Source: Parvibaculaceae bacterium PLY_AMNH_Bact1 (lineage in GTDB: Bacteria; Pseudomonadota; Alphaproteobacteria; Parvibaculales; Parvibaculaceae). From it: DNA of 64,000 nt. The notes beneath the pieces were generated by a model that was not told the origin of the DNA, made no database searches, and saw only the letters and a list, made by a program, of their open reading frames with translations. This document shows, piece after piece, positions 1,662 through 29,600 of this stretch (positions within the stretch are counted from its first letter, which is position 1; each line of letters opens with the position of its first letter). The DNA lies in contig CP126168.1 in the NCBI GenBank assembly GCA_032881465.1, positions 3,225,501-3,289,500 on the forward strand, in the 5' to 3' direction. The position numbers and the translations under genes were made by a program.

Positions 1662-2834
1662 TCAGAGACGCTCAACGATCGATACATTGGCAAGTCCACC
1701 ACCTTCACACATGGTCTGAAGGCCATAGCGCTTATTCTTCTTCTGCAGCGCATGGATCAATGTGGTCATGAGCTTCGTACCGGAACCACCAAGCGGGTGA
1801 CCCAGCGCAATCGCGCCGCCATTCACATTGAGACGCTCAGGATCAGCACCTGTTTCTTTCAGCCATGCCGCAGGAACAGAAGCAAAAGCTTCGTTCACTT
1901 CGAAAAGATCAATGTCATCAATCTTCATGCCGGTCTTTTCAAGTGCGACCTGAGTTGCCGGAATTGGGGCTTCTAGCATGATGACCGGATCGCCACCTGT
2001 AACTGTTAGGTGGTGAATGCGTGCGATTGGATCCACGCCGAGGTCTTTCAGACCCTTTTCATTCACAACCATGACCGCCGATGCGCCATCACAGATCTGG
2101 CTTGACGTCGCCGCGGTCAAAGCACCGCCTTCAACCAGCAGCTTCACACCTTGGATACCGTCAAGGCTTGCATTGAAGCGAATGCCTTCGTCTACCTTGT
2201 GAACTTCTTTCGTGCCGTCTTCCAGCTCGACTTCGAGACCAAGAATTTCATCATCAAAGTCACCCGCCTGAGTTGCGGCAATCGCTTTTTCGTGGCTTCG
2301 GAACCCGTATTGGTCAAGTTCGTCTTTTGAGAGTCCGTATTTTTTCGCCATCATTTCAGCGCCCGCAAACTGGCTGAACTGAACGTCAGGATAGCGCTCT
2401 GTCATGTGAGGGCTCACATAGAACCCAAAGCCGTTCTTTATGGGCAATGACATAGGCAGACCCATTGGCACACGGGTCATGCTTTCGACGCCGGATGCAA
2501 TCACACAATCCATGAAGCCTGACATCACGGCCTGTGCCGCAAAGTGCAGCGCCTGCTGAGAAGATCCGCACTGACGATCAACCGACGTCGCAGGAACGCT
2601 TTCCGGCATGCCCGCAGCTAGAACTGCGTTACGTGCAATGTTACCAGCCTGCTCGCCAGCCTGACCAACGCAGCCCATGATCACATCATCAACGCGCGCC
2701 GGATCGGCATTTGCCTTGGAGATCACTGATTTCAAAACTTCACCAGCCATATCAGCCGGGTGCCAGCCTTTAAGGCGTCCGTCGCGACGACCACCGGCGG
2801 TCCGGGTCGCGGAGACGATATAAGCTTCTGCCAT
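1662..2834 (-). CDS. Acetyl-CoA acetyltransferase / thiolase
   Basis: A full-length thiolase of 390 aa, catalysing thiolytic cleavage of 3-ketoacyl-CoA or the reverse condensation. The acyl-accepting cysteine is Cys89 in VDRQCGSSQQA. The His346 motif (GGAIALGHPLGGSG) and the second catalytic Cys376 (MCEGGGLA) are both present, as is VNEAFA. It is cytosolic. It stands alone on the minus strand with about 260 bp of upstream DNA, so it probably has its own promoter. It belongs functionally with the crotonases and acyl-CoA dehydrogenases to its right. Substrate chain length cannot be told from the sequence; degradative rather than biosynthetic use is inferred from context. Confidence 0.92.
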   Translation of the reverse strand: MAEAYIVSATRTAGGRRDGRLKGWHPADMAGEVLKSVISKANADPARVDDVIMGCVGQAGEQAGNIARNAVLAAGMPESVPATSVDRQCGSSQQALHFAAQAVMSGFMDCVIASGVESMTRVPMGLPMSLPIKNGFGFYVSPHMTERYPDVQFSQFAGAEMMAKKYGLSKDELDQYGFRSHEKAIAATQAGDFDDEILGLEVELEDGTKEVHKVDEGIRFNASLDGIQGVKLLVEGGALTAATSSQICDGASAVMVVNEKGLKDLGVDPIARIHHLTVTGGDPVIMLEAPIPATQVALEKTGMKIDDIDLFEVNEAFASVPAAWLKETGADPERLNVNGGAIALGHPLGGSGTKLMTTLIHALQKKNKRYGLQTMCEGGGLANVSIVERL

Positions 2835-3093
2835 GTCTTTTTCCTCTTAGATGTAACGAGTCTGACCATAAATATGGGTTCGATTTGGCCGTAAGATGGG
2901 CCGAGCGCGCGGGAGATTCAACGCTCTTTTAGGCGCGCACGCCTCACACTTTCGAAGGCCGCGATTTGCCGAGGAATTCCCTACGTAAAGGCTGATAAAT
3001 TGCTTTAACCCGTTAGCCCCGCTTAGACTGCGGGCAACGTAATATCACAGAACACTGACAAATTTGGCCCACACGGCCAGCAGGGAGAGCCTC

Positions 3094-16562: not shown

Positions 16563-18143
16563 ATGGAACAACTAACAGGCCTCGACGCCGCATTCCTTTA
16601 TATGGACCAAGAGAATTCGCCGATGCATATCGGCAGCGTCGCAATCTACGATCCTTCAACAGCCCCTGGCGGGTTCGTCCGATACAAAGACATTCTCAAG
16701 TTTGTTGAAGACCGGCTTCCGCTCGCCAACACCTTCCGGCGCGGCCTCGCCAATGTGCCCTTTGGCATCGATCACCCTTACTGGGTGGAAGTAGAAGACT
16801 TCAATCTGGAGTATCACGTGCGTCACGTGGCCCTTCCAAAACCTGGAGACTGGCGACAACTCTGCATTCAGGCAGCACGCATCATGGCGCGCCCTCTTGA
16901 TCTGACAAAACCGTTGTGGGAATTCACGATCATCGAGGGCCTGGACCATGTAGAAGGTGTCCCCAAGGGCTCCTATGCCATCATTTCCAAGATCCACCAT
17001 TCAGCGATCGATGGCATGTCAGGCGTCGACATTATGAATGCCCTGCACACAATCAAACCCGACGACACACTTCCTGTATTGGAAGACACTTGGAAGCCGG
17101 AGAAGAAACCGAGCGCAGTGGAAATGGCAGTTCGGGGTTACCTCGGCAACGTAAAGCAGCCCTTCAAGTGGGTCGAAATGGCCGGCAAGACTCTCCCAGG
17201 TCTCGCACGCACGATCAAAGGACTGCTGACAAAAGAATTCTCACTTGGTCAAGCCATGGCCGTGCCCCGCACGCGTTTCAACAATAAGATTTCTGCGCAC
17301 CGTGTGATCGAAGGAGTCGCCTTCGACCTGGCACGGATCAAAGAAATCAAAACCGGTGTACCTGGCGCAAAAGTCAATGATGTCATGCTGACTATCGTTG
17401 GGGGCGCAATGCGGAAATACCTGGAATCAAAGGCCGAGCTCCCAGAGACAACACTGGTCGCAATGGCACCGGTATCCGTCAGAACCAATGACGAGTCCGG
17501 ATCCCTCGGCAACCAAGTCTCTGCAATGATGGTCCAACTCGGGTCCGACATTGCCGATCCCTTGGAACGCATTCTTTCGATTTCAAACCACACACAGGAG
17601 CAAAAAGCTCTGACAAACGCCCTTGGCGCACGACAAATGTCAGAACTCAGCAAAACAGCTCCTGCTCTTTTCACCGGCATTGCAGCAAGGCTCTACACAC
17701 AGTTTGGACTGGCAAATTCAACGAAGCCATTTTTCAACACCGTCGTGACGAATGTGCCTGGGCCTCCCATTCCGATCTACATGAACGGCGCTCAGATGGT
17801 GAAATATTTCGGCCTCCTCTGCCTGTTTGATGGGCTGGGACTAGGCCACGTGGTGATGAGCTACGACAAGGAAGTCACCATCACCATTACCGCCGATCGC
17901 GAAATGATGCCCGACCCAGAGTTCTATGCAGAGTGCCTGCAACAGAGCTACGACGAATTGGAACTGGTTGTCCTAGGCGCTAATAAAAAGAAAGCGCCTG
18001 CGAAAAAGAAAGCCAAGGCAAAAACAAAAGCTGCACCGAAGCGCAAGTCGCCCGCTAAGAAAAAGACCGCAGCGAAAAAGAAGACCGCCGCTAAACTTGA
18101 GGCTGAGCCCAGCGAACCATCGCTAGTGCAAAAGACCGGCTAA
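16563..18143 (+). CDS. Wax ester synthase / diacylglycerol acyltransferase with histone-like tail
   Basis: A 526-aa WS/DGAT enzyme, which joins acyl-CoA to a fatty alcohol or diacylglycerol to make storage lipid. The catalytic HHxxxDG is HHSAIDG at residues 145-151, and the N-terminus MEQLTGLDAAFLYMD is typical. PLWEFTIIEGLD and the NVPGPP segment are also family marks. Residues 475-511 are an added tail of Lys, Ala and Pro (KKKAPAKKKAKAKTKAAPKR and more), like histone H1 or the tail of the PhaF phasin. It is a single-gene unit, with a strong terminator 20 bp after the stop. Confidence 0.92.
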   Translation: MEQLTGLDAAFLYMDQENSPMHIGSVAIYDPSTAPGGFVRYKDILKFVEDRLPLANTFRRGLANVPFGIDHPYWVEVEDFNLEYHVRHVALPKPGDWRQLCIQAARIMARPLDLTKPLWEFTIIEGLDHVEGVPKGSYAIISKIHHSAIDGMSGVDIMNALHTIKPDDTLPVLEDTWKPEKKPSAVEMAVRGYLGNVKQPFKWVEMAGKTLPGLARTIKGLLTKEFSLGQAMAVPRTRFNNKISAHRVIEGVAFDLARIKEIKTGVPGAKVNDVMLTIVGGAMRKYLESKAELPETTLVAMAPVSVRTNDESGSLGNQVSAMMVQLGSDIADPLERILSISNHTQEQKALTNALGARQMSELSKTAPALFTGIAARLYTQFGLANSTKPFFNTVVTNVPGPPIPIYMNGAQMVKYFGLLCLFDGLGLGHVVMSYDKEVTITITADREMMPDPEFYAECLQQSYDELELVVLGANKKKAPAKKKAKAKTKAAPKRKSPAKKKTAAKKKTAAKLEAEPSEPSLVQKTG

Positions 18144-18161: not shown

Positions 18162-18204
18162 AAAAAGCGGGCCCCGAAGAAATCTTGGAGGCCCGCTTTT
18201 TTGT
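18162..18204. terminator. Bidirectional intrinsic terminator
   Basis: AAAAAGCGGGCC and GGCCCGCTTTTTT arms around a loop of about 16 nt, between the WS/DGAT gene and the convergent hydrolase. Confidence 0.9.
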
Positions 18205-18228: not shown

Positions 18229-19020
18229 TCAATGTCCGCTGGACGGATAAACGAGTGCACGCCAACCCTCTCGGTGGAACGGGCGCCAATTATCTTCAGG
18301 CTGTGCCAAACGGTCTGCCACCGCATACATGGTCGGCGCGTTAAAACCGAGACCACAATGAGAGGTTCGCACCTCAATATTGTCTGTATGGCCTTCTCGC
18401 GCTTCGATGGAGTTCTTCCAGTGCACGATCCCATCTGTCTTCGTATAGATTGATGTGGTTGGGATGCTTGGAGGAACTGCAATACTTTCGACGAGTTCCC
18501 GGAACCTTTGAGTCTGGGTCTCACCTTTGGCCATCACCTTGAAAAGCGGCCAGGCGCGACTGGTTTCAGGCTTGCCCGAAAACGGACTGCCGAGCGTGAT
18601 CACTTGCCTCACAGCGTCGGGCGCGCGTTTTGCAACTTCCCGTGCAAGAACACCACCCAAACTCCAGCCAACCAGACTGATCTTCTGACCGTCGTGGCTC
18701 TCGGAAATTTCTTCGATACGCTCAGCGATCCGTTCGCCCTCGTACCCAACTGTTGCTGGGCCAAGATTACGACCAAGCTCCCACGGATAGGCCTCATAGC
18801 CACGTGACGTTAGGAAACGCCGGAGCACGCCCGTGCTGCTATCACCAGCCATAAAGCCAGGAAGCACCATCACAGGGTGTCCATCGCCTATAGGCGCGCG
18901 TTTCAGGAACTGTTGAAAAATCGGTAACATGGCCACTTCGGCCATTGTCCGGCTGGGCTCAAGGTAAAGCCAGCGCAATTGTGGACGGTCAAGATCGGCA
19001 GACTCAGACATCATTGCCAT
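18229..19020 (-). CDS. Alpha/beta hydrolase (lipase-like)
   Basis: A 263-aa alpha/beta hydrolase. The nucleophile elbow is GWSLGG with Ser near residue 147. A likely acid is Asp in TKTDGIVHW, and the likely catalytic His is in SHCGLGFN. An early GHPVMVLPGFMAGD gives the oxyanion-hole strand. No signal peptide is present, so it is probably cytosolic. The start could be any of the three Met codons within the first four residues. It is convergent with the WS/DGAT gene; a role in storage-lipid turnover is possible but only from proximity. Confidence 0.85.
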   Translation of the reverse strand: MAMMSESADLDRPQLRWLYLEPSRTMAEVAMLPIFQQFLKRAPIGDGHPVMVLPGFMAGDSSTGVLRRFLTSRGYEAYPWELGRNLGPATVGYEGERIAERIEEISESHDGQKISLVGWSLGGVLAREVAKRAPDAVRQVITLGSPFSGKPETSRAWPLFKVMAKGETQTQRFRELVESIAVPPSIPTTSIYTKTDGIVHWKNSIEAREGHTDNIEVRTSHCGLGFNAPTMYAVADRLAQPEDNWRPFHREGWRALVYPSSGH

Positions 19021-21296: not shown

Positions 21297-22754
21297 GTGA
21301 CGAGCGAAGACAAGACAGAAACGATCACGCCGGAGAAGGGTCCCTTCGACTTTAACTTCCTTATCTCTCTCGCGTTGGCCCTGTTGGTCTGGATCGGTCT
21401 GCGCAATGACGTGGTCTGGGGCAGCTTTGTTGGAGAAGCTGACCGCGAAGCGCTTCAAATCGCGTTTGAGATGCGCGTCAATAAAACACTCCCCGGATCT
21501 CATCCAATCCTGTTCCTCAATTTGGATGACTCAGTCTGGCTGGGTGCGACAGCTGACGGCCCCGCCCTCGCCTATGCGCCCCGCCCGGTCCTCGCTGACC
21601 TCATCGAAGCATCATACGGAACACCGGGCATGCCCCGCCCGAAAGTGGTCATTGTCGACATAGATCTCTTTTGGCGCACACCCGATGAAGCCGCCGAACA
21701 ACGCATTGATAAGATCCTTCAAAAGTGGGGACGCGATCCGGAAGCCCCCCTTCTTATTCTTCAAAGAGAGGTGACTGAAGGCGACGGTCGCCCCGACTCT
21801 CTCGCTGCCGCCCGTGCGTCAGACAGAGACAGCATCATTCTGTCGGCACCGGAAGACAATATCGTTTGGGCAAGCGCACAACTGACAGGCGATGAAGTGA
21901 TGGGGGCCCGCTACTTCACCCATTTCCTGTGTATCGACACGCCGACCGGCATCGAAGCATCTGCAACCACCGCATTTTATGCAGCCGTCGCGCGAAAAGC
22001 AGAGACCCCTCGAGAGGCCATTCAGATTGTCCAGAAATCAATGGAAGGTCCTCGCTCCTATTGCACCGGTACCTGGGATGACGTTTCCTTCGATCTCACT
22101 ATCCCTGGTCGACAACCGCTCACATTCAAAAGCCAGCAGAGCCTCATCAATTACAATCTGAATGCAGGCTCAGCAGATGACCCAGAACCGCAGCTCCCCG
22201 CTGCCGATATGTTTGTTATTCCCGCCGGGCTGGTTCAACCGGGCATGGTCGCAGGTCTCTCGGCAAATGATGGGGTCGTAATTATTGGATCTGCTGCCAT
22301 TGCCGCGAGAGACCGTCATATCTCCGCATATGGCGCCATGGGCGGCAGTCTCGTCATTGCCAACGTCATCAGGGGGGTAGAAGCAGGTGGCGAAGTAAGG
22401 CGCATGGCCTGGTACCTCGAAGCCATCCTGTTAACCCTGTTTGTCATGCTGATCGTGTTGGCTTTCTGGTATTGCCGAAAAGCCAGGGACTACCTCAAAC
22501 CTATGGAGGGCCTGCACTGGGCCATGCGAATAGCCCGTACACCTATCAATCTGTTGACCAATCCGGTTATCATCAAGATATTGATCGGAATAGGGGTTTT
22601 CTGGGTTGGGGCTGGTGCCAGTTATTTCCTTCTAGATGACGGTCTGTGGCTTGGTTTAGCCGCCCCTGCATATGCAGCGGCACTTAACGAAGCCCGCGAA
22701 GATTTTGAAGAATTAATGGAAAGCTTGAGAAATGCCGAAACAAAAAATGGTTAG
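21297..22754 (+). CDS. CHASE2-domain membrane protein without an output domain
   Basis: A protein of 485 aa. One transmembrane helix is near residues 22-42. A long extracytoplasmic CHASE2 sensor domain runs to about 375, with KVVIVDIDLFWRTPDEAAE and NDGVVIIGSAAIAARDRH typical of CHASE2. Two or three C-terminal membrane helices lie near 393-415 and 443-475. CHASE2 normally feeds a kinase, cyclase or other catalytic domain; here none follows, so signalling must go to a partner. The start is GTG 21297 with GGGGA 7 nt upstream. The next gene overlaps by 23 nt and is presumably co-translated. The pair converges on the CHAT/TPS operon. Confidence 0.85.
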   Translation: MTSEDKTETITPEKGPFDFNFLISLALALLVWIGLRNDVVWGSFVGEADREALQIAFEMRVNKTLPGSHPILFLNLDDSVWLGATADGPALAYAPRPVLADLIEASYGTPGMPRPKVVIVDIDLFWRTPDEAAEQRIDKILQKWGRDPEAPLLILQREVTEGDGRPDSLAAARASDRDSIILSAPEDNIVWASAQLTGDEVMGARYFTHFLCIDTPTGIEASATTAFYAAVARKAETPREAIQIVQKSMEGPRSYCTGTWDDVSFDLTIPGRQPLTFKSQQSLINYNLNAGSADDPEPQLPAADMFVIPAGLVQPGMVAGLSANDGVVIIGSAAIAARDRHISAYGAMGGSLVIANVIRGVEAGGEVRRMAWYLEAILLTLFVMLIVLAFWYCRKARDYLKPMEGLHWAMRIARTPINLLTNPVIIKILIGIGVFWVGAGASYFLLDDGLWLGLAAPAYAAALNEAREDFEELMESLRNAETKNG

Positions 22755-23643: not shown

Positions 23644-26619
23644 TCACCCTCGATTGAGCACTCGGTCTGCGTCTCCGGTCATGACATACGGAGCCCAGAA
23701 ATAGGGGTGTGAGAACTTGTCTTGAGCGATGAGCGCTTTCTGGGCACCGCGTAACGCTTCATGCATCGGTGCACGAGCGGCATCTACGAAAAACTTGCGA
23801 ACCACCGCGTCTGCCGCAGCGTCATCTGCAACCCAGTGGGTAGCAAGCACAGATCGTGCACCCGCATAGACAAAGCTTCGAACCAGCCCATCAAGCTGCG
23901 CACCATCGAAGACAGCAGCAACACCCTCAGCACCTTCGGCCGCCCGCGCGGTATCGCACGCGGCCAGAACCACCAGCGTGGCATCAAGTTTCATATCAAG
24001 AATTTCAGTCGCGCTCAGCATGCCATCGCCGCCTGCCTGGTCAAGCGACGTCAGCAGTGACGGTTCGGAAATGCAAAAGCCATCCCCAAAAAAACCATGC
24101 GTAACAAAGACCAACACCTGTTGATCAACAAGCGATGCATCTTCGATCGTGTCCACATCGGTGAAGGACCGTCCGGTCACATCTCGGCGGCCGAATGCCT
24201 GCCCAACTGACGACCGCAAGGCGGTCAGCGGCTTCTGAAGATTGGGCTGCCCAGCAAACACCTGACCACACCGGGCGGGCCTGCCTTCCGCTGTCATCCG
24301 AGCCGTGAAATCAGATATCCAGGCATCAGAATTGTTGGGGGGCACAGGCGGTCCAAAAACGGTCATACCGGTGGTCGCCTCTGGGGCCTCAGCGGTCCTT
24401 GCCGCAACAAAACTCGCCGCGCTCGGCGTATTGATGAAAGCAAAATCATTCGCAAGCCAGGGCAAGGTGGAATAAGACCGCGCGCGCACGAGATCCTTCT
24501 GTTCATCATCAAAGGCCGAGAGCAGAAGCGATGGAGGAAGTGATCCAATCACACCGCGAGGGGCAAATATCAGTGTTTCGACACCTGCCTCGCGAAGGTC
24601 TGAGTAAACCGGCCCCAACACGCCGTCAAACAATGCATGCGCCTGTTCGGCAGCAAAAGGTGGCGTTCCGCCAGCGCGTGCGCGCAGCGTGGAGCGCACG
24701 CGACGCACGAGACGGCGCGCGTCATTGCGCCCAAGCTCAGTACCAAAGGGCATCACCTTGCCCGAGAAAACAGCATACCCAAAACCACCGGCCTGGGTGG
24801 GGGCAAAAGCGACAAATGCCTCGTCTGAGCCAAGTGTCGAAATGAGGTCCGCCGTCTCCGCCCCCCCATTCACAAGCTGCATATATTGCGGCTGAGCCTG
24901 ACGCGCGAGGACCTCTGCTTCCAGCGCCGCCGCTTCCGTGGTCTCCACAGCAAGCGTCAATCGCGCAAGCTCTTCCGGGTCATCAGTGCTGGCGCCCTGT
25001 TGCAGAGCAAGGCGAGCCTCCTGAAGCGCTCGCTCAGCATCCTGCAACGCACGGATTTCGTCTGCTGTTCCCTCGCTCGCGACCCGCGCGGCCGCCATCG
25101 CCATCGCCGCCGCAGCCCTCGGCTCAACCATTCCTTCAAAAGCATCGACAAAACGTCTCGTGAGCCCTGCCGCATCCCCAAGCCCCATGTCCTGTGCCCG
25201 CAACAAAACACCCAGATAATCTCCTGCAACATCCGGCGAGATGCCAAATGAGCCCTCTACACTCGAATAAAGATCAAACGAGTAATTGTAAGAAGCGAGC
25301 GCTGCGGAGACATCGCCATCGGTAATCTGGGCTTTTCCGAGGCTCGCAAGAAGCCGGGCAGTCAAAAGAGATTGAGGCTGGTCTTTGACCCACTTGGCCA
25401 CAAGGGTCGACAAGCGTGATCGCGCAGCACCAACATTACCTTGCGCCAGATCATTCCCTGCACGCCGCTCTTCAATCAGCGCATCAAGCCATCCGGCCGA
25501 TCCCGGAGGTGCACGTCCCACCAGATCCGCCGCATCATCAAGTGCATCCGCCGCTCCCTCGCGACCTGAAAGAAGCAGTGCAGACGCCCGAAGATAGGCT
25601 CTATGCCCTTCAAGGATGAGTGCCCTAACGCCCGGACGGAGCTCTGCATCTGAATAGATCGGCGGCACACTATTACCGCTGCGATGATTAACAAACTCAG
25701 CAGCCCGCGGTGTGATCACACGATCAGAGCTCTCTCCCGAGACAAAGGCATAGGCCCCAAAAGTCTCCGGCGCGAAAGCCTGTTCTGCCAGCGCCAGGGC
25801 TTCTCGATAGTTCCCTATATTGAGCTGATGCACGGCCCTGTAGTTGATGAGTTTATCGCGCAGCCACGAGGTCGTCTGCACTCCCGCTGAGAGAGCCGTG
25901 TTATCAAGCAGTGTTTCCGCTTCCGCAAAACGCCCCTGGCTCGAAAGATTGAGCGCAAGGTCCAGCGCAATATCCGCGCGGCGCACAGGATCGCCACCAA
26001 AGAGCCCATCCTGGATTGCCACTGCTTTGGCATAATCTTCTGCGGCGAGGGAAAAACGGAAAGACACATTCCGCCGGTGTCCGCGTCGGCGCAATACTTC
26101 CTGATCCTGAAGTGCAGCAACGCCTGGCAGGCTCGCCATTTCATCCGCACTTAACTCAATCGGTGCTTCAAGGCCCGCAAGGGCTGCAGCCCCGCGACGC
26201 ATTGCAGGAAGAGAGCCGGGAATTCCCCGGGCCTGCACGATGGTGTCTGATCCCGAAACGCTGATCGCAAGATCCTGCAGCAATGTACCCGACAATTGCC
26301 CTGGGCATGTCAAAACACCTTCAGCAAGCAAACTTGGCTCGACAGAAGACCGGCACGCCGACAAGAGACCGGCACCTTGCGCAATCTCGTTGGGATAAAC
26401 ATCCATTGTTGCAGCCGCCCGACGCCATGTACCGCAAAACACATCGTACCGGGCAAGCGCGCCCACAGCTTCCGTATCAAGACGCTTGCCAGCCCGGCAG
26501 GCATCGCCCTCTGAGCTCACGCCAAGATCCAGTGCGTCAGGTAATGCTGACCCCATCTCCTGCATACAGCTGGTAAGAAACAAGACAGAGAGCAAAGTTG
26601 CGAGGAAACGGCCGGTCAT
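23644..26619 (-). CDS. CHAT-domain caspase-like lipoprotein with TPR-like repeats
   Basis: A lipoprotein of 991 aa. The signal MTGRFLATLLSVLFLTSC ends in a lipobox, with acylation at Cys18. Residues 100-600 are helical and repeat-rich (TPR-like, with coiled-coil stretches rich in Ala, Glu and Arg near 490-560). The C-terminal CHAT domain (about 590-985) keeps both catalytic residues: His841 in VFVTHGFFGDG and Cys888 in VVLAACDTA. It should be an active cysteine protease of clan CD at the periplasmic or outer-membrane face. Its ATG overlaps the stop of the TpsA gene as ATGA, so the two are translationally coupled. The likely target is the coupled exoprotein or the CHASE2 pair. Confidence 0.88.
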   Translation of the reverse strand: MTGRFLATLLSVLFLTSCMQEMGSALPDALDLGVSSEGDACRAGKRLDTEAVGALARYDVFCGTWRRAAATMDVYPNEIAQGAGLLSACRSSVEPSLLAEGVLTCPGQLSGTLLQDLAISVSGSDTIVQARGIPGSLPAMRRGAAALAGLEAPIELSADEMASLPGVAALQDQEVLRRRGHRRNVSFRFSLAAEDYAKAVAIQDGLFGGDPVRRADIALDLALNLSSQGRFAEAETLLDNTALSAGVQTTSWLRDKLINYRAVHQLNIGNYREALALAEQAFAPETFGAYAFVSGESSDRVITPRAAEFVNHRSGNSVPPIYSDAELRPGVRALILEGHRAYLRASALLLSGREGAADALDDAADLVGRAPPGSAGWLDALIEERRAGNDLAQGNVGAARSRLSTLVAKWVKDQPQSLLTARLLASLGKAQITDGDVSAALASYNYSFDLYSSVEGSFGISPDVAGDYLGVLLRAQDMGLGDAAGLTRRFVDAFEGMVEPRAAAAMAMAAARVASEGTADEIRALQDAERALQEARLALQQGASTDDPEELARLTLAVETTEAAALEAEVLARQAQPQYMQLVNGGAETADLISTLGSDEAFVAFAPTQAGGFGYAVFSGKVMPFGTELGRNDARRLVRRVRSTLRARAGGTPPFAAEQAHALFDGVLGPVYSDLREAGVETLIFAPRGVIGSLPPSLLLSAFDDEQKDLVRARSYSTLPWLANDFAFINTPSAASFVAARTAEAPEATTGMTVFGPPVPPNNSDAWISDFTARMTAEGRPARCGQVFAGQPNLQKPLTALRSSVGQAFGRRDVTGRSFTDVDTIEDASLVDQQVLVFVTHGFFGDGFCISEPSLLTSLDQAGGDGMLSATEILDMKLDATLVVLAACDTARAAEGAEGVAAVFDGAQLDGLVRSFVYAGARSVLATHWVADDAAADAVVRKFFVDAARAPMHEALRGAQKALIAQDKFSHPYFWAPYVMTGDADRVLNRG

Positions 26620-29600
26620 CGGACCCCCGCATCCCACAAGGCTTCATTGCCGCTTGCAGCAACGCCGCCAAGGTCTTCTTCCTCATCGTCCTCATCATCC
26701 TCACCGGTCTCAAACACAACCGGGATCACACCACCCAGGCCCGAGGGATCCCCATTGATAAAGCGGTTGTTCCGCTCAATCTCGCGAAGAGAATCAGCAG
26801 AACAGCTCACTGGATCACCGATGAGACAAAAATTCATGTAGTACCGGTTATTCTGGATCAACGCGGTCTCGCCAGATGTCGTGTCACCGCCAAACAGAAT
26901 ATTCTCTTCAAGGCTGGCATTAAAAGCAGACACACGCGTGCCATCTGCCCGAATGACATCGCCGAAAATCAACACCTCTTCAGGCCCGGTGCCTGATGGG
27001 AACAAAACCCCGTCCCCCTTAGACGGCACGTTGAACACAAGCCCTGCCCCCTCAACGCCGCGCCCCGTATTCAACTGGACGACCGATCCAGGCGCCAAAA
27101 TTTGCAGCTGATTGGTGGCGATAAACACATGATCCTCAGCAACACCGAAAAGACTGTGAGGCAAGGCAGCCAAGCCTAGGAGGGGCAAAGACCCTGACTC
27201 AAAAATCTCCAGGAACCTCTCCGTCCCAATCACAACATCATCGGCCGACTCAAGCCGAACACTTCCCAGCCTTCCCGCACCCGTATCCAAACCCAGCTGC
27301 CCAGAAATCAGGATCATTCCAGGTCGCCGATCAAGGCTCGCGGTTTGATACCCAAGCTGTAGAGACGAAAGACCGGCAACGGTACCCGCAGCAATGATGC
27401 GGGATGACTGGTCTGTCCCGATCATCATCGTATCCAGGCTGCTCGTGTTGAGCCGCGCATCCAGCAACAACACATCGTTGGCACCGCCATCTATGTCAAA
27501 ACGACCAGCGGAGATTTTGGTAAGCTCAGATTCATCAATGATGAGCCCTGCAGCCCGTCTGAGTGTGATGCCACCTGTCGTGCCATTACCACCGAGCACG
27601 ATTGTCTGCCCTGTGCGATCGGTCTCTAGAATGAATTGATCGCCCGCGGATATCGACCCGGAGAGATCAAGGTCAGCGACGGTCAACATGACATCGCTTA
27701 AGGCGCCAATCCGATTGAGAAGAGCGCTGCCATTGGATGCATTCAGCACGAGCGTGCCACCCATAGCACTCATCGAACCACCAATCGTCACATTACCCGT
27801 AAGTGCCTGTAGAAATGCGCTGCCATGTGCAGTTCCGGTCCCAGCGACACTCACCGAGCCGCCCACAAGTCGGATATCTTTGGTCGCTTCCAGGTCATTA
27901 ACAGCAATTGGACCGTTGGCCGCGTTGGCGACAATGTCGCCAAGAGTTGCCATTATGCTGCCCGTAGAGGAAATACCCCCAGTAAGCGCGGTCAAAAGAA
28001 CATCTGTCGCTGCCGTAACTCTCCCAATGAGTGAGATTGAGCCAGCTTCTATCTCCAAGTTACTGGTCGAAGAAATATCTCCGACAGTCGCTGTCAGAGC
28101 AGCGGAGGTGCCAGCGGTAGACTTACCCGCGAGGTCAATATCTTGGGCCGACATGGTAATGCTGGTACCTGCCGTCGTGGTCCCCACGTCAATGCTCCCG
28201 GTCGCCGCATTGATCGCGATAGCCCCCGTCGTCGCTGTCACCGCATTGATCGCGATAGCCCCGGCAGTCGCTGTAATCGTGGCATCGGTGGCAGCCAGCG
28301 CCGGACCAGAGACCGTCACCGCCGAGCCCTCAATCTCCAACGCCCCCGTCGAAGACACATCCCCAACCGTTGCCGTCAGCATCGCTGTGGTCGTGGCATC
28401 AGCTTTGCCCGTGAGGTCAATATCTTGGGCCGACATGGTAATGCTGGTACCCGCCGTCGTGGCACCCACGTCGATATTCCCGGTCGCCGCATTGATCGCA
28501 ACAGCCCCGGCCGTTGCCGTCACCGCATCGAGCGTGGCATCCCCTGACGTCGCCGTAATCGTGGCATCGGTGGCAGCCAGCGCCGGACCAGAGACCGTCA
28601 CCGCCGAGCCCTCAATCTCCAACGCCCCCGTCGAAGACACATCCCCAACCGTTGCCGTCAGCATCGCTGTGGTCGTGGCATCAGCTTTGCCCGTGAGGTC
28701 AATATCTTGGGCCGACATGGTAATGCTGGTACCCGCCGTCGTGGCACCCACGTCGATATTCCCGGTCGCCGCATTGATCGCAACAGCCCCGGCCGTTGCC
28801 GTCACCGCATCGAGCGTGGCATCCCCTGACGTCGCCGTAATCGTGGCATCGGTGGCAGCCAGCGCCGGACCAGAGACCGTCACCGCTGAACCTTCAATCT
28901 CCAACGCACCCGTCGAAGACACATTGCCCGCCGTTGCCGTCAGCATCGCGGCGGTCGTGGCTTCGGCTTTGCCTGTCAGATCAATATCCTGACCAGACAC
29001 GGTGATACTAGTCCCCGCAGTCAGAGCGGCAGCATCCACATCGCCTGTGGTGGCGGTAATACCAATCGCGCCCGTCGCAACAATCGCGTCATTGACCGAT
29101 GCATCACCGCTCACCGCCTCAATGGCCGCAGATCCGACAGAGATATCTTGTGCGCTGGCAGCAATAGAGACTGAGCTACCTCGAACGGTCAAAGCCCCCG
29201 TGGCACTAATACCAAGATCTGCAGTCCGGACAGTCTCGGTTCCTGTTGCAGCAACAACCCCACCAACCAAATCCGCACCGCCGAGCAGCATGACAGAACC
29301 TGACCCGGTGCCTACATTTGTCGCCTCGATAACACCATCAACATTTAGAAAGGCGCCGCCTCCCATCGACGACGCAGCGGAGATAATAACATTACTGCCA
29401 CGAGCACTCCCCGCCGCCGTCTGCGTAACAGGGACCGTCTCAGCAGGTGCCATGGCATGATCAACACCAGTATCAATGATAAAATCTGTGACCAGCAGTT
29501 CCTTGTATGGGGCTCCGCCACCCGCCGGCGTCCGATCCGCCTCAGCAAAACTGAGACGAAACGCGTTTGCGCCCCCAAGAAGAACATCCCCATTGTCCGA

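Follow-up and report, generated by a model that had tools for sequence, protein, structure and literature searches.

The wax ester synthase/diacylglycerol acyltransferase (WS/DGAT) encoded in the window, i.e. the whole 64,000-nucleotide stretch of Parvibaculaceae bacterium PLY_AMNH_Bact1 DNA that was analysed (contig CP126168.1), carries behind its catalytic domain a lysine- and alanine-rich tail resembling histone H1. Our analysis indicated that this tail is real, selected and recurrent, and more general than was seen in a preliminary description of the sequence, in which the synthase had been proposed to tether lipid droplets to the nucleoid; such tethering is plausible. Non-specific attachment of the synthase and its droplet to the nucleoid by the tail is our leading reading, held tentatively, with a probability of roughly 0.45. 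The features concerned are the following:

16563..18143, forward strand: WS/DGAT, 526 aa, ATG start (TIGR02946, PF03007 and PF06974)
16995..17015, forward strand: HHxxxDG active-site motif, residues 145-151 (alignment)
17916..17987, forward strand: final helix of the folded part, residues 452-475 (in the AlphaFold model, where pLDDT reaches 98 ahead of the tail)
17985..18095, forward strand: Lys/Ala-rich histone-H1-like tail, residues 475-511 (sequence; predicted disorder; selection)
18096..18140, forward strand: weakly charged C-terminal 15 residues, 512-526 (LEAEPSEPSLVQKTG) (sequence)
18229..19020, reverse strand: alpha/beta hydrolase, convergent neighbour of the WS/DGAT (PF00561)

Judging from its sequence, the product of the open reading frame (ORF) 16563-18143 is a member of the WS/DGAT family. 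It matched the TIGR02946 model (acyl_WS_DGAT) over residues 4-467 with 432.3 bits, against a family cut-off of 309.95, and a Pfam scan placed WS_DGAT_cat (PF03007) at residues 4-275 and WS_DGAT_C (PF06974) at residues 316-466. HHxxxDG is the active-site motif of WS/DGAT enzymes, and residues H145, H146, D150 and G151 were invariant in an alignment of 60 sequences; the predicted activity is wax ester or triacylglycerol synthesis. At E values up to 1, Pfam returned PF03007 and PF06974 only, without a phasin domain (PF05597), and the histone H1-like HC2 model (PF07382) gave no match to the window WS/DGAT at the same limit. A match of a valyl-tRNA ligase model to the tail (NF011492, E 0.0071) was dismissed as low-complexity noise.

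The convergent alpha/beta hydrolase, homologs of which were detected by tblastn in 58 of the 94 loci L001-L094 in both relative orientations, is a possible lipase or esterase partner of the WS/DGAT. Just past the WS/DGAT stop codon, a hairpin with a GC stem and a T run was noted by eye (window about 18165-18200); it was not among the matches of a terminator scan, and its loop exceeds the length allowed by that scan. Further along the window, the Pfam scan revealed a CHASE2-domain protein (21297-22754) and, close by on the opposite strand, one with a CHAT domain (23644-26637).

The tail itself (KKKAPAKKKAKAKTKAAPKRKSPAKKKTAAKKKTAAK) is composed of 18 Lys, 1 Arg and 11 Ala among other residues, none of them acidic, and it lies exactly where the preliminary description had placed it, since residue 475 begins at base 17985. 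The net charge reaches +17 over the 58 residues beyond the WS/DGAT domain, and the last 15 residues retain a similar form in four members of the genus. In the AlphaFold model, computed from a 60-sequence alignment (mean pLDDT 87.4, pTM 0.85), the tail was without secondary structure, with a pLDDT of 65 dropping to 34 (about 40); it is thus predicted to be disordered. The tail is outside the Pfam and TIGRFAM models, which stop at residues 466-467. Nor is a tail present in 6CHJ and 7NXG, two solved relatives that sequence comparison assigns to the WS/DGAT family: their chains (455 and 463 aa) finish with the domain, the match stopping at chain residues 451 and 444. The earlier statement that the tail is absent from the standard enzyme therefore holds for the family models and these two structures, but not for the protein's own clade, where such tails prevail.

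WS/DGAT C-termini were surveyed in 60 relatives together with the own genome (a match in 21 of these 61), in named genomes, in an evenly drawn class sample (20 of 289 genomes), in an evenly drawn phylum sample (35 of 299) and in eight further named genomes reached through loci. From 242 hits, 8 were dropped as incomplete, and 186 of the remaining 234 were left at 95% identity. With an author-chosen cut-off for the basic class (at least 12 residues, net charge of at least +5 and at least 15% K+R), a basic tail was found in 77 of these 186 non-redundant complete WS/DGATs, the others being short (<12 aa, 47), acidic (19) or of another kind (43). The possibility that the tail is an oddity unique to one protein was ruled out by this count. 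Basic tails were present in 57 of the 68 sequences at least 45% identical to the query, in 4 of 24 at 35-45% identity, and in 16 of the 94 that were below this range or unaligned. That 11 of the 68 close relatives, including a four-member group whose tails are 4-7 residues long, are outside the basic class counts against nucleoid attachment. At the genome level, at least one basic-tailed WS/DGAT was encoded by 16 of the 20 WS/DGAT genomes of the class sample and by 12 of the 35 of the phylum sample. Among culturable non-pathogens, Qipengyuania gaetbuli and Erythrobacter sp. SD-21 possess the tail (loci L038 and L039). An outgroup search, from which 30 of 47 matches gave 23 new non-redundant rows, yielded no basic tail in these rows; the Motiliproteus locus L082, found earlier than the outgroup rows, has one.

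The basic/non-basic label was mapped onto a FastTree phylogeny of the 186 trimmed cores, from which the tails were excluded. At least 19 changes were required (well-supported branches force 16), compared with a mean of 59 for shuffled labels, and the exact number of gains and losses is uncertain because many branches are long. As the query falls within a clade of 79 rows of which 62 are basic, the tail is, on this tree, an old trait of one clade that was gained or lost many times elsewhere. Within the one enzyme family, it spans many bacterial families.

The genes around these synthases do not share the tail. In the named-genome loci L032-L093, a net charge of at least +8 together with at least 8 Lys in the last 50 residues was found in 36 of 56 WS/DGATs and in none of 316 neighbouring ORFs. 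The mean K/(K+R) was 0.79 for tails and 0.32 for neighbours, and it was higher for the tail in 38 of 38 loci (mean GC 0.586), which means that lysine is retained in preference to arginine despite the base composition. dN/dS was calculated for five members of the genus (the window and L004-L007, 10 pairs; L008 and L009 were left out), giving 0.01-0.03 for the core. For the tail, values of 0.06, 0.10 and 0.10 were obtained in the three pairs whose synonymous sites are not saturated; in the other seven, tail synonymous sites were saturated and dN was at most 0.223. Tail codon changes in the genus were mostly synonymous. Tail-less neighbours, lysine preference and mostly synonymous changes together indicate that the tail is under selection for a lysine-rich composition and not drifting. 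A frameshift or spurious read-through was ruled out, as purifying selection extends through the tail.

The same data bear on the proposal that the tail is a neutral low-complexity product of replication slippage. Its low complexity and one weak 18-base tandem array (17985-18024) would fit such an origin, but the KKKTAA repeat units differ in codons, the tail dN/dS is low (0.06-0.10), lysine is retained in high-GC genomes, and the composition is conserved over deep divergence. On these grounds slippage was rejected as extremely improbable.

When the 77 basic tails were compared with within-tail shuffles, spaced basic pairs (76 against 12.2), PAKK (19 against 5.3) and KP[AV]A (38 against 6.9) were over-represented and KKK was depleted (32 against 45.1, the observed number being reached in 294 of 300 shuffles), these contrasts being descriptive because related tails are not independent. 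The query tail contains PAKKK twice and the exact PAKKA word of the MLDS/HBHA comparison not at all. At the level of sequence words, this grammar of spaced basic pairs, PAKK and KPAA matches that of the PhaF, AlgP and MLDS tails, for which DNA binding has been reported, and the resemblance to a histone-H1-like PhaF tail on which the preliminary description had drawn is borne out.

Like PhaF of Pseudomonas (PF05597), whose tail is reported to bind DNA (PMC3574117, PMC13052382), the window protein combines a location on the storage-granule surface, here presumed, with a disordered Lys/Ala/Pro C-terminal tail bearing KP[AV]A-type words; isolated C-PhaF is described as mainly random coil and alters on binding (PMC3574117). 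However, PhaF has a structural role, as a phasin of PHA granules, whereas the window tail sits on a neutral-lipid synthase. PhaM of Ralstonia eutropha, reported to bind PHB, PhaC1 and DNA, also joins a granule synthase to DNA and the nucleoid (PMC3556143), but it is a separate protein binding PhaC1, and in the window protein tail and synthase form one chain. Lipid-droplet or inclusion proteins with a Lys-rich tail are found in Rhodococcus jostii (MLDS) and in mycobacteria (HBHA), and DNA binding by MLDS was reported to proceed through C-terminal PAKKA motifs and to be abolished by a Lys-to-Glu change (PMC5504291); unlike the window protein, neither is an acyltransferase. The H1-like KPAA-type tail of Pseudomonas aeruginosa AlgP is reportedly required for the spacing of polyphosphate granules (PMC9239181), and AlgP differs from the window protein in serving these granules and in having an N-terminal part described as helical. 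The window protein, a WS/DGAT and not a phasin, would work as the PhaF, PhaM and MLDS tails do if the inference from these systems holds.

For nucleoid attachment, the tail would be a flexible, strongly positive arm on the enzyme that produces neutral-lipid droplets and is located on them. By analogy with its functional relatives, the tails of PhaF, AlgP, PhaM and MLDS, it would bind DNA without sequence specificity, and DNA binding is its most likely property. The synthase and the growing droplet would be held on the nucleoid, and we infer for this bacterium that droplets could thereby be spaced out and divided between daughter cells. The survey (77 of 186), the recurrence on the tree, the tail-less neighbours, the low tail dN/dS and the PhaF/AlgP/MLDS-like grammar all argue for this reading.

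HBHA, which the title of one study calls a nucleoid-associated protein (PMC10665949), points to a second possible target. Its lysine-rich tail is reported to bind PI and PIP2 and to be needed for mycobacterial lipid inclusions, and derivatives lacking the lysine-rich region neither bound PI/PIP2 nor restored the inclusions (PMC6176652). Such a tail binds phosphoinositides and not DNA alone, which weakens the case for the nucleoid and favours an electrostatic anchor to acidic phospholipids, by which the enzyme would dock both at the inner membrane, the site of droplet formation, and at the phospholipid surface of the droplet. A +17 arm would bind any polyanion, and WS/DGATs are thought to act at the membrane, both of which count for the anchor. 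Bulky hydrophobic and aromatic residues make up only 7.4% and 0.3% of the tail residues, so that an inserting amphipathic helix is unlikely, but purely electrostatic docking remains compatible with this composition. In addition, lipid binding by HBHA was reported to depend on methylation made in mycobacteria (PMC6176652). Overall, we consider the lipid anchor rather unlikely.

The charge of the window tail was also placed against the proteins of its own genome. In the window and 20 stretches of 20 kb (464 kb in all; mechanical calls, ATG starts, longest first), the C-terminal 50-mers of 402 ORFs of at least 100 aa had a mean net charge of -0.25 (s.d. 4.17). A net charge of at least +14 was found in four of them: the window WS/DGAT (+15), topoisomerase I (+17), a DbpA-type DEAD-box helicase (+15) and an RNase R-type RNB protein (+14). 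The three besides the WS/DGAT all act on DNA or RNA, in agreement with nucleoid attachment.

BLAST of the own genome with the tail as query returned the tail itself and the extension of an aconitase only, the latter at E 1.55. Lys/Ala pattern searches gave 33 and 75 hits, against 10 and 29 with the same patterns reversed, and part of the hits were identified; two standalone histone-like ORFs were found in this way. On the nucleic-acid and ribosome side, Lys/Ala extensions are carried by topoisomerase I, a MarR regulator, a pseudouridine synthase, an ABC ATPase read as UvrA, and trigger factor (L300:160-1662, C-terminal). Three others are outside nucleic acids and ribosomes: ArgJ (L115:241-1632) and a glutamine-synthetase-like protein (L316:2125-3552), both extended N-terminally, and the aconitase (L096:1378-3108, near G000:C1:3398.2-3398.8 kb), with a histone-like N-terminal extension of ~200 residues and about +97. 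In 11 of 14 loci, among them the own copy, a strongly basic N-terminal region (net +57 to +113) lies ahead of the core of the aconitase, and in some of these loci the first Met may precede the true start.

The extensions on aconitase, ArgJ, trigger factor and the glutamine-synthetase-like protein, which are without a droplet role, speak against nucleoid attachment of droplets as the purpose of such tails. Together with the other carriers, from topoisomerase I to phasins, and the two standalone ORFs, they would suit a general polyanion-binding or solubility extension (for DNA, RNA, ribosomes or polyphosphate) with no specific role in droplet positioning. This explanation is unlikely in our view: among genes overall such tails are rare (none of the 316 neighbouring ORFs has one, and 4 of 402 ORFs of the own genome reach a net charge of +14 or more), and within a single enzyme family the tail recurs across many bacterial families.

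The own genome encodes two further WS/DGATs, one 42% identical with a short acidic end (L002) and one 33% identical with a separate-looking basic tail (L003). Two WS/DGATs with net +17 tails are thus found beside a paralog ending in EDDDGEDQTVVYLE (net -7); this acidic end (L002:1498-2952) is nearly unchanged in the genus copies L024-L027. Pairing of basic tails with the acidic tails of paralogs, leading to mixed enzyme clusters on droplets, would be consistent with this combination and with the presence of both kinds of tail in 7 of the 20 class-sample WS/DGAT genomes. However, 9 of the 16 basic-tail genomes of that sample are without an acidic-classed WS/DGAT, and pairing appears very unlikely.

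With regard to phasins, the Phasin_2 profile (PF09361) found no match in the own genome. An own genome without phasin was nevertheless ruled out, since pattern searches revealed a tandem pair of PF05597 phasins, both Lys/Ala-tailed, with a TetR regulator behind them (L294: 381-860 and 1024-1608; also L321:3522-5424, G000:C1 about 59.5-61.4 kb). Their tails are in keeping with nucleoid attachment, but a PhaF-type phasin could already tether droplets in this bacterium. PhaC_N was without a match in the own genome and in 5 of the 6 genus mates searched (6 of 7 genus genomes); this profile could overlook class III/IV synthases, so that these negatives do not prove an absence of PHA from the genus. 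With PhaC_N unmatched in the own genome, the tandem proteins are possibly droplet rather than PHA phasins. Against nucleoid attachment, the tail is not tied to an absence of PHA, as 11 of the 16 basic-tail genomes in the class sample have PhaC_N. A replacement of the PHA machinery by the tail was likewise unsupported, PhaC_N being present in 49 of 66 WS/DGAT genomes.

A phasin homolog adjoins the WS/DGAT in 2 of 238 loci, many of which have a flank of ~1.5 kb only: L179 (two phasins, 2119-3023) and L244 (212-568). Both WS/DGATs are without a basic tail, and one L179 phasin is Lys/Ala-tailed. Two of these three phasins scored above the PF05597 cut-off and the tailed one below it (20.8 against 28.8 bits). 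A phasin beside a tail-less WS/DGAT would fit a tether able to sit on either protein, two cases being few, and counts in favour of nucleoid attachment.

In the titles and abstract openings searched, which covered few subscription papers, a tail on WS/DGAT was not described. A sediment WS/DGAT survey treats alphaproteobacterial sequences, and the words 'lysine' and 'DNA-binding' are missing from its main text (PMC10351704); a 2025 review covers PHB, polyphosphate, carboxysomes and magnetosomes, and 'lipid droplet' does not occur in it (PMC13052382). The observation made in the preliminary description is confirmed and its interpretation partly supported.

On a wider scale, the synthase may repeatedly have acquired an H1-like tail across Pseudomonadota, so that one protein would both make the droplet and tie it to the chromosome. 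This in-cis arrangement would be an alternative to a separate phasin, PhaM or MLDS, and lineages would differ in carrying the tail on the synthase, on an adjacent phasin, or on both; we put forward this generalization as a possibility that is still doubtful.

Tethers between granules and the nucleoid are already known; here, the tail is carried by the synthase itself. The placement and sharing of bacterial fat droplets are known for few cases, such as MLDS in Rhodococcus (PMC5504291). Should the synthase itself act as the tether, the formation of a droplet and its attachment to the chromosome would be coupled in one polypeptide by a tail of ~37 residues. In wax-ester and triacylglycerol engineering, removing or transplanting this tail could alter droplet number and size, and the recurrent gain or loss of tails provides a natural comparative series.
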